From the NCBI RefSeq assembly GCF_014842915.1, contig NZ_JACYXI010000011.1, positions 1 through 64,000 on the forward strand: a stretch of DNA of 64,000 nt. Direction: 5' to 3'. The stretch comes from Roseibium litorale (GTDB lineage: Bacteria > Pseudomonadota > Alphaproteobacteria > Rhizobiales > Stappiaceae). The position numbers and the translations under genes are program-made. Every line of letters begins with the position of its first letter. Within the stretch, counting starts at the first letter, position 1. Below are positions 40,114 through 41,564 of the stretch, piece by piece. The notes beneath the pieces were generated by a model. It did not search any database, was not told where the DNA came from, and saw only the letters and a program-made list of their open reading frames with translations.

Positions 40114-41433
40114 TTAGTGGTCCATAATTTCAGTGGCTTCGATCTTGATGTCGAAGCCTTCGAGACCGACGTAGTGGCGCTCACGAGAGGAAAGAAGGCG
40201 GATTGAGGTAACCCCCAAGTCCTTCAGGATCTGCGCGCCAAGGCCGATCTCGCGCCACTGTTCCTGGCGGACCTGAGCCGATCCATGCTCTTCGTTTTCG
40301 GCAGCTTCCAGTTCCGTCCGGCTGCGCTTCGACTGCCGGGCGACGCCGACAGAACCTTCGCGCAAGTAGACAATGACACCGCGGCCGCGTTCGGCCAGTA
40401 GCTTCATGGTCGTGTCCAGCGGCTGGGCTGCGCCGAAGACGTCATCCAGAACCGACTCCAGCTGGAGGCGGACCGGCACACTGCGTCCATCAAGGATGTC
40501 GCCATAGACGACAGCAACATGATGCATGGGGTCGTAGGGCGTGGAATAGGTCACGGCATAGGCATGGCCGGCAGCGGTCTCGATCGGCTGCTCGTTGACA
40601 CGCTCCACCAGCCGTTCGGTGCGCTGGCGCCAGGCGATCAGATCGGAAACCGAGACCATCTTGAGGCCGTGATCCGCTGCAAAGGCTGCCACGTCGTCAC
40701 CGCGCTTCACCGTGCCATCGTCGTTGACCAGTTCGCTGATAACGCCAACTTCCTCCAGGCCTGCAAGACGGCAGAGATCAACCGCAGCTTCCGTATGGCC
40801 GGAGCGGATCAGCACACCGCCTTCCTTGGCAATCAGCGGGAAAACGTGACCGGGACGGACAAAATCCTCCGCGCCCACATTCGGATTGGCCAGCGCCCGC
40901 ACCGTGGAACAGCGCTCTTCGGCCGAGATGCCTGTGGTCAGTCCGCGCCGGTAGTCGACGGAAACCGTGAAGGCCGTCGCAAGCGGTGCGTCGTTTTGCA
41001 AGACCATCGGATCAAGACGGAGGCGCCGGGCGGCGGCTATGGTCATGGGGGCGCAGACGATGCCTGAGGTGTGGCGGATAATGAAAGCCATCTGCTCAGG
41101 GGTTACCCGGGACGCGGCGACAATCAGATCGCCTTCGTTTTCACGGTCGTCGTCGTCGGTCACGACCACGATTTCACCGCGCTCAAAGGCACGGATAGCT
41201 TCTGCGACACGGGTTTGGGACACGGGATGCTCCTTGTTGGTGGCAAGACCAAGAAAGTCATTGGGTGTGACAGCGCCACCAGTGGCCTCGGCAATCTTGC
41301 GCGCCATATCCCGGGACACCCAGACATTGGGATCGTTGCAAAGGGCCGTCACCGAAGCTGCAGACAGGTTCGCTCTGCGCGCGAACGCGCTGCGGCTTTC
41401 CCCTTGCTCCTGAAGCCAGTGATCTAGTCTCAT
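40114..41433 (-). CDS. ribB: RibBX: DHBP synthase with N-terminal HTH and degenerate GTP cyclohydrolase II domain
   Basis: A 439-residue three-part protein. Residues 1-65 form a YdaS/Cro-like helix-turn-helix (SAFARRANLSAASVTAL, ATGGAVTPNDFL). Residues 71-275 are an intact 3,4-dihydroxy-2-butanone 4-phosphate synthase (DDDDRENEGDL, HTSGIVC, RPGHVFPL, SGHTEAAVDL), which makes the four-carbon unit of riboflavin. Residues 285-439 resemble GTP cyclohydrolase II, but the three zinc cysteines are replaced by Ser327, Pro338 and Asp340, so this domain cannot act as the usual enzyme. RibB with such a domain is known as RibBX; the fused HTH is unusual. No FMN riboswitch is seen upstream. Confidence 0.88.
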   Translation of the reverse strand: MRLDHWLQEQGESRSAFARRANLSAASVTALCNDPNVWVSRDMARKIAEATGGAVTPNDFLGLATNKEHPVSQTRVAEAIRAFERGEIVVVTDDDDRENEGDLIVAASRVTPEQMAFIIRHTSGIVCAPMTIAAARRLRLDPMVLQNDAPLATAFTVSVDYRRGLTTGISAEERCSTVRALANPNVGAEDFVRPGHVFPLIAKEGGVLIRSGHTEAAVDLCRLAGLEEVGVISELVNDDGTVKRGDDVAAFAADHGLKMVSVSDLIAWRQRTERLVERVNEQPIETAAGHAYAVTYSTPYDPMHHVAVVYGDILDGRSVPVRLQLESVLDDVFGAAQPLDTTMKLLAERGRGVIVYLREGSVGVARQSKRSRTELEAAENEEHGSAQVRQEQWREIGLGAQILKDLGVTSIRLLSSRERHYVGLEGFDIKIEATEIMDH

Positions 41434-41483
41434 GCTTTCGATGTAAACCCGGTCCTGCCTGTTGGCAAGCGTCCGTGCCCATA

Positions 41484-41502
41484 AATTTCAGTGATACTGA
41501 AA
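41484..41502. promoter_or_regulatory. 19-bp palindrome upstream of ribBX, possible autoregulatory operator
   Basis: ATTTCAGT-gat-ACTGAAAT is a perfect 8/8 inverted repeat around a three-base spacer, 50 bp before the ribBX start and 61 bp after the stop of the upstream methyltransferase gene. The HTH domain of RibBX itself is the obvious candidate ligand. This is inference from symmetry and position. Confidence 0.6.
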
Positions 41503-41564
41503 TGCAGTGCCCGGCGGATGTTCCCTGCTATCCACGGGAGTTCCGCCGATAGTCCGCTCTGCGA

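Follow-up and report, generated by a model that had tools for sequence, protein, structure and literature searches.

The window, by which we mean the whole 64,000-nucleotide (64-kb) stretch of Roseibium litorale DNA analysed here, carries on its minus strand a gene whose product joins an N-terminal helix-turn-helix (HTH) domain, a DHBP synthase (RibB) domain and a GTP-cyclohydrolase-II-like domain (the X domain) in one open reading frame, with a perfect palindrome upstream (Table 1). The coding sequence has a single match in its own genome. The initial annotation had described an HTH joined to an intact DHBP synthase, and this is borne out by the single frame, the match to the synthase profile and the HTH fold predicted by AlphaFold2; the DDDDRENEGD, RPGH and RSGHTEAA motifs of DHBP synthase are invariant among 34 aligned sequences. 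The AlphaFold2 model of the full-length protein, which we call HTH-RibBX, is poor (pLDDT 67).

Table 1. Features of the HTH-RibBX locus in the window, and proteins at other loci that carry relatives of its HTH.
Feature	Position	Strand	Remark
HTH-RibBX coding sequence	40114..41433	-	439 aa plus stop, ATG start
X domain, GTP-cyclohydrolase-II-like without zinc ligands, residues 277-432	40138..40605	-	PF00925, 4.3e-32
DHBP synthase (RibB) domain, residues 78-268	40630..41202	-	PF00926, 2.4e-81
Internal start codon GTG, residue 71, putative HTH-less RibBX of 369 aa	41221..41223	-	orthologue comparison
Internal Shine-Dalgarno AAGGAG	41230..41235	-	window sequence
HTH domain, residues 1-63; recognition helix residues 25-33	41245..41433	-	HTH_26, AlphaFold2, orthologue alignment
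Putative -10 box TACATC	41440..41445	-	-12 to -7 from ATG; apparently leaderless promoter
Putative -35 box TTGCCA	41463..41468	-	at -35 from ATG
Operator O1 (putative), ATTTCAGT-N3-ACTGAAAT	41485..41503		perfect palindrome, centre -61 from ATG
HTH-fused protein, locus L407	1-1689	-	
HTH-fused protein, locus L411	130-1683	-	
HTH-fused protein, locus L417	1462-3027	+	
HTH-fused protein, locus L406	1501-2295	+	

Both hallmarks of RibBX are present, namely a DHBP synthase domain with conserved motifs and a C-terminal GTP-cyclohydrolase-II-like domain that has lost its zinc ligands. By residue mapping onto 2bz0, the X domain is without a zinc site: RibA Cys54 corresponds to Ser327, Cys65 to a gap and Cys67 to Ala335, while Tyr105 and Asp126 correspond to Ser371 and Gln392, and Arg128 is kept as Arg394 (we presume the functional roles of these six RibA residues). 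The loss of the zinc cysteines and the Ser327 substitution thus stand as first annotated, whereas Pro338 and Asp340, named there as the other two replacements, give way in the alignment to the gap and Ala335. No separate ribA was found in the genome, where the PF00925 profile matches the X domain only. This is not taken as ruling out RibBX identity, because a Rhizobiales formamidase route with an undiscovered cyclohydrolase as partner has been described; in the excerpt of Yurgel et al. (2022) that we draw on, RibBA can be dispensable and the formamidase BrbF is needed (PMC9478397). With no PF00925 match besides the X domain, the first riboflavin step has no assigned enzyme in this genome (G000), as has been described for other Rhizobiales.

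The N-terminal module is of the Cro/C1 type by predicted structure. AlphaFold2 places five helices in residues 1-68 (3-10, 14-20, 25-33, 41-50 and 57-60; mean pLDDT 82), an arrangement typical of Cro/C1-type domains, in which the third helix (residues 25-33) would be the recognition helix. By profile, the window protein stays below the curated cut-off, with Pfam HTH_26 matching residues 2-52 at E 0.0016 and 19.1 bits (cut-off 22), while the related HTHs of loci L406, L407, L411 and L417 pass HTH_31. The domain had been labelled YdaS/Cro-like, of which the Cro part agrees with the predicted helices and the YdaS part finds no support, the window protein being without a match to YdaS (PF15943) at E up to 1; the homologue at L404 matches that profile weakly (0.011, below cut-off). 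The HTH is conserved across 34 aligned orthologues. A sequence search of the PDB with the HTH gave no relative (best E 1.7), a search of plasmids gave no match and a search of phages gave three weak ones.

Relatives of this HTH occur in other settings. A standalone 90-aa relative with 47% identity (L350, 5058-5330, minus strand, genome G093) lies beside an oppositely oriented XRE-type gene and phage-like genes, a hint that the module came from a phage; given these phage-like surroundings, L350 was rejected as a split ribBX regulator. In other Alphaproteobacteria the HTH relatives of Table 1 are fused to other proteins: two are glutamine-synthetase-like, one resembles 2-oxoglutarate dehydrogenase E1, and one is a nitrate-reductase-delta/TorD-like protein. 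A set of HTH-headed enzymes may span the class.

Upstream of the gene, the palindrome reads ATTTCAGT-ATC-ACTGAAAT on the coding strand and ends 51 bp from the ATG; the perfect palindrome first reported about 50 bp upstream is therefore real, its interval having been one base short. Allowing three mismatches or fewer, the window contains no other match, with 0.10 expected by chance, and the 4.94-Mb genome has no second perfect copy; matches with up to three mismatches occur at 15 places in the genome (two for a control with the pattern read backwards). A terminator is disfavoured, since the palindrome is rich in A+T, sits on the upstream side of the presumed promoter and is conserved in the form of half-sites. 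An FMN riboswitch or other known RNA at ribBX was likewise rejected, as Rfam families all stay below their gathering scores in the window; the initial annotation had also seen no FMN riboswitch here, and two occur elsewhere in the genome. At the 3' end of the gene (40114-40150) a sequence, CACTGAAATTATGGACCAC, is similar to the operator's right half plus the letters after it (CACTGAAATTTATGGGCAC); lying inside coding sequence, this likeness is probably chance.

To follow HTH and palindrome across relatives, we assembled 254 ribBX loci from protein searches and the stretches of their matches, of which 225 were left when 29 identical copies were dropped. This set, a selection from many more matches that is richest in the gene's own family, leaves out loci fetched by palindrome or riboswitch searches. 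An HTH was counted as present at a profile score above 90 bits (the range from 50 to 100 was empty), which gave 134 loci with the HTH, 82 without it, as defined by the profile of the HTH studied here alone, and 9 with other HTHs (7 and 2). Scanning 250 nt upstream for the 16 fixed letters of the palindrome with up to four mismatches, we found it at 132/134 loci with the HTH and at 0/82 without it, as expected from the earlier suggestion that the palindrome would be conserved beside HTH-bearing ribBX genes. With up to three mismatches it was still present at 127 of the 134, where the backwards pattern matched 7 at four mismatches and none at three or fewer; among the 82 HTH-less loci the backwards pattern matched one, at three mismatches. 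A wider set that includes palindrome-fetched loci gave 138/140 versus 0/83. The two exceptions, L288 and L291, have a TTTAG-type variant of the palindrome at the same place. Chance was rejected as the source of the palindrome on this conservation, its low expectation in the window and its uniqueness as a perfect copy in the genome.

The palindrome carries 1.8-1.9 bits per position compared with 0.28 in its flanks. The calculation covers 25 representatives from a diverse set of 27, of which two fall outside both position classes described below. Any perfect palindrome with a 3-bp spacer and arms of at least 6 was found at 92/140 genes with the HTH versus 3/83 without it, a count for which L219 and L336 are not valid and for which the phylogenetic sign test had too few pairs. 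HTH-RibBX is found in a group of bacteria from soil and sea, with carriers in Roseibium, Pannonibacter, Stappia, Pseudovibrio, Phreatobacter, Bosea, Labrys, Ancylobacter, Xanthobacter, Methylobacterium, Microvirga and Chelatococcus. In a quickly built gene tree with 100 rows, the label for the HTH requires 9 changes on the best tree and at least 4 on starred branches. Well-supported branches hold only four independent contrasts (three concordant, none contrary and one tie; sign test 0.25), so the 134 loci fall well short of independence. In one genome (G179), two exact operator cores stand in tandem upstream of ribBX (C2:268739-268753 and 268777-268791), and a copy of the second lies within the 5' end of a LysR-like open reading frame (C1:378734-378748).

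The palindrome also varies with the protein. Across the 134 loci, half-sites beside proteins with Ala at residue 30, in the recognition helix, are TCAG in 216 cases, TTAG in 1 and others in 15, and those beside Gln30 proteins are TTAG in 14, TCAG in 6 and others in 4; Gly goes with TCAG in 9/10 and Ser in 2/2. The Gln30 proteins number 12 and belong mostly to a few related families, and so represent few events; the exceptions with TCAG are L263 and L286, and partly L264 and L287 (L263 and L264 both belong to family f28). In a diverged HTH subfamily (seven loci of one family), Gln stands at the corresponding place as judged by eye, and TTAGC-N3-GCTAA-type sites, two of them imperfect, begin 23-29 nt before the start at all seven. 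In another family of the class, HTH-RibBX is preceded by ATTTTAAGT-TTG-ACTTAAAAT at L404, with a near copy at L403, and at L219, where an unrelated HTH is fused to RibBX, GTTGCCA-aaa-TGGCAAC lies upstream. The 3-bp spacer is common to the sites of the TCAG and TTAG types, L404 and L219. By these comparisons the half-site tracks residue 30 of the recognition helix, with some exceptions.

The genome's two FMN riboswitches stand before genes that, by resemblance, we take to be ribN-like (encoding an EamA-type protein) and ribH2-like. The single genome site with two mismatches (C11:268296-268314) touches the 5' end of the riboswitch before the ribN-like gene (C11:268152-268299), while the locus of the ribH2-like gene's riboswitch has no palindrome site. 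The same division holds in the gene's own family, where among loci found by their riboswitch the site is present at 32/33 ribN and 0/14 ribH2 loci, the one exception being L153, or at 37/38 ribN loci if five fetched by the palindrome are included. Genomes outside the family with a RibBX that is without the HTH had the site at 0/2 ribN, 0/7 ribH2 and 0/1 RibB-type (L177) loci; the counts leave out three unclassifiable loci and one duplicate. RibN has been described as an FMN-riboswitch transporter of alphaproteobacteria in the part of the source used here (PMC4418817).

The exact core TTCAGYNNNRCTGAA occurs at least once in 86/87 genomes of the family, mostly one to five times and up to seven (backwards control 0-6), and three times in the genome studied here (control 1), where two of the matches listed fit ribBX and ribN. 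A survey of 28 chosen genomes of the order covered 20 HTH carriers outside the family, with 27 exact core sites of which 19 lie at ribBX as judged by position, and 8 non-carriers, with 7 such sites, none of them at ribBX in those checked (G301 left out); the carriers G075 and G211 have a variant only and no exact core site. An unlinked transcription factor might in principle bind the palindrome, with the HTH of RibBX serving otherwise, for example in self-assembly, and the case for binding by HTH-RibBX is indeed comparative, from an HTH below its Pfam cut-off. Such a factor would have to account for a palindrome that is present or absent together with the HTH and varies with its recognition helix, and for the small number of exact sites in each genome, among which ribBX and ribN recur, and we consider it highly improbable. 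The comparison instead strongly favours binding of HTH-RibBX to the palindrome of its own gene, as the initial annotation had proposed, and HTH-RibBX probably controls its own production.

Among 67 representatives drawn from 140 ribBX loci with the HTH and lined up by their HTH start codon, 39 have TTG at exactly -35 and 45 have TA at exactly -12, and a Shine-Dalgarno sequence of at least 5 nt precedes the HTH start in none (at least 4 nt in 7/67). HTH-less genes have no TA peak, a weak comparison as their start codons are approximate. The transcript is apparently leaderless, with the A of the HTH ATG as its first base. In 44/138 loci the centre of the palindrome lies near -32, over the -35 box, and in 87/138 near -61; in 67/88 loci of the -61 class a weaker operator copy (up to seven mismatches; upstream control 1/88) lies 28-29 bp downstream, again on the -35 box. 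O1, TTGCCA and TACATC are present in the window promoter; a second copy on the -35 box is not recognisable there. Collectively, these placings apparently describe a conserved leaderless promoter whose -35 box is flanked or covered by operators, a feature additional to those of the initial annotation.

At ribN, a view of 26 loci (three without a site; promoter boxes assigned by eye) places the site just after the presumed -10 box in the genome studied here, and elsewhere on the -10 box or some 35 nt ahead of the -35 box. Repression is likely, given that core promoter elements carry operators or operator-like copies at many ribBX loci and at the genome's own ribN. HTH-RibBX could alternatively activate, helping RNA polymerase from -61 at ribBX and some ribN promoters: this is a usual activator position, the classical class I distance, and an operator whose start precedes the -35 box by about 35 nt, putting its centre near -61, is found both in the window and in one class of relatives' ribN promoters, a similar spacing at two unrelated promoters, although the ribN boxes were assigned by eye. 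We regard activation as distinctly unlikely, since operators on the -35 box, as in the -32 class and the weaker copies of most other loci, and an operator beginning directly after the presumed -10 box, as at the genome's own ribN, are placings typical of repression.

The initial annotation had raised the prospect that close homologues might start at residue 70 and be without the HTH; the HTH proves to be present and conserved, and a conserved internal start, not remarked on earlier, lies at residue 71. The junction of HTH and enzyme in the window reads AAGGAG-CATCCC-GTG, and all 134 orthologues have an in-frame ATG, GTG or TTG there, with a Shine-Dalgarno sequence of at least 4 nt in 129 and at least 5 nt in 107 (65 and 53, respectively, of the 67 representatives). 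Windows of the same size elsewhere in the gene average 5.9% (at least 4 nt) and 2.0% (at least 5 nt), with one outlier in the gene body, at a fixed Lys-Glu motif, reaching 79% and 51%. This conserved start codon with its Shine-Dalgarno suggests that one gene gives both a repressor-enzyme and a plain enzyme, of which the latter would equal the HTH-less RibBX of relatives.

We consider it rather doubtful that the internal start is instead a relic, or its Shine-Dalgarno a by-product of Lys-Glu codons, with all protein made at full length, or conversely that the short form alone is made. HTH-less orthologues begin at about the junction, and the fusion therefore probably arose by placing an HTH gene before a start that was already there, as the relic reading would have it. 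The Shine-Dalgarno sequence keeps one register to the frame in 46/53 representatives, and for this reason Lys-Glu or Arg-Glu codons of a G+C-rich genome may contribute to it; the other 7/53, however, use another register with other amino acids. Separately from the register, Val at the main junction position is encoded by GTG in 24 representatives and GTC in 2, compared with 36% GTG in the gene body, and 19 more have ATG there, as expected for a start codon. The linker is moreover the least conserved part of the protein (40%, versus 75% for the HTH, 84% for RibB and 65% for X), and the HTH itself is conserved, both of which speak against these readings.

The comparative evidence thus comprises the linkage of HTH and palindrome, the covariation at residue 30, the ribN site, the promoter layout and the internal start codon with its Shine-Dalgarno; enzyme and DNA-binding domain form one polypeptide, encoded in one open frame in the 134 orthologues, as in trigger enzymes. 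On this basis we think it fairly probable that HTH-RibBX is a self-regulating, trigger-type enzyme that acts at ribBX and ribN and has a second, HTH-less product. A leaderless transcript from the HTH ATG would yield full-length HTH-RibBX, whose dimeric enzyme core would present two HTH heads to the palindrome (half-site TTTCAGT, 3-bp spacer). These heads would bind the gene's own promoter and, in its own family, also that of ribN, the presumed riboflavin-transporter gene that is also under an FMN riboswitch, and binding on or beside the core promoter would repress both genes. The internal start (AAGGAG-N6-GTG) would make the same enzyme without the HTH, so that catalytic and regulatory doses could be set separately, and the dead GTP-cyclohydrolase fold or the RibB site may carry the ligand that releases the protein from DNA. 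GTP, FMN and riboflavin had been named in the initial annotation as metabolites that the dead domain may sense.

Two further HTH types, unrelated, are fused in frame to RibBX at L219 (G077) and L336 (G299). L336 falls on the gene tree among carriers of the HTH studied here and HTH-less relatives, a position which suggests that one HTH was replaced by another; no convincing palindrome was found for it. A broader and tentative reading, in which we place somewhat less than even confidence as a whole, is that a leaderless operator promoter, a phage-like HTH and an internal ribosome-binding site before a metabolic gene form a portable cassette for self-control, that RibBX has acquired this cassette with three or more HTH types, unrelated or far diverged, and that the dead X domain is the sensor. 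If so, metabolite sensing by X would explain why a dead cyclohydrolase is kept.

A full-text literature search, which covered few subscription papers, returned no description of HTH-RibBX. Flavin secretion and a two-branch pathway are under study in Rhizobiales, according to the excerpt cited above (PMC9478397), and the scheme proposed here, if true, adds a protein layer of riboflavin control atop the FMN riboswitch at ribN. The HTH and its mapped putative operator turn the role of the X domain into a question for DNA-binding assays, in which a metabolite that alters binding would be what X or the RibB site senses. A leaderless promoter combined with an internal start would also be a simple way for one gene to yield regulator and enzyme.

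Several known systems share parts of this arrangement. RbkR, the archaeal regulator of riboflavin genes, is similar in fusing an HTH to a flavin enzyme, riboflavin kinase, and differs in being archaeal, in its enzyme and pathway step, and in an HTH that is not known to be related to this one. With the RibBX proteins (Brutinel, Dean and Gralnick 2013; Nouwen et al. 2021), whose X domain is reported to regulate RibB by an unexplained mechanism (PMC10012899), HTH-RibBX shares an intact RibB followed by a GTP-cyclohydrolase-II-like domain without zinc and ring-opening residues. A separate ribA supplies GTP cyclohydrolase II in Aeromonas and Shewanella (PMC10012899), whereas no separate RibA was detected here, and HTH-RibBX adds an N-terminal HTH, a putative operator, an apparently leaderless promoter and a candidate internal start. 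In Wolbachia, wBmxR1 and wBmxR2 are likewise XRE-type regulators that bind an alphaproteobacterial riboflavin gene promoter, but they are separate proteins that acted as positive regulators in a reporter assay, at a site that is not the HTH-RibBX palindrome, as far as the portion of the report used here describes it (PMC3518464). HTH-RibBX would work in the manner of PutA of E. coli, a trigger enzyme which, in the passages available to us (PMC8249747), is a DNA-binding enzyme that represses its own gene and that of the matching transporter, putP, for which ribN would be the counterpart here; unlike PutA, HTH-RibBX is a different enzyme with a Cro/C1-type HTH and a predicted second, HTH-less product.
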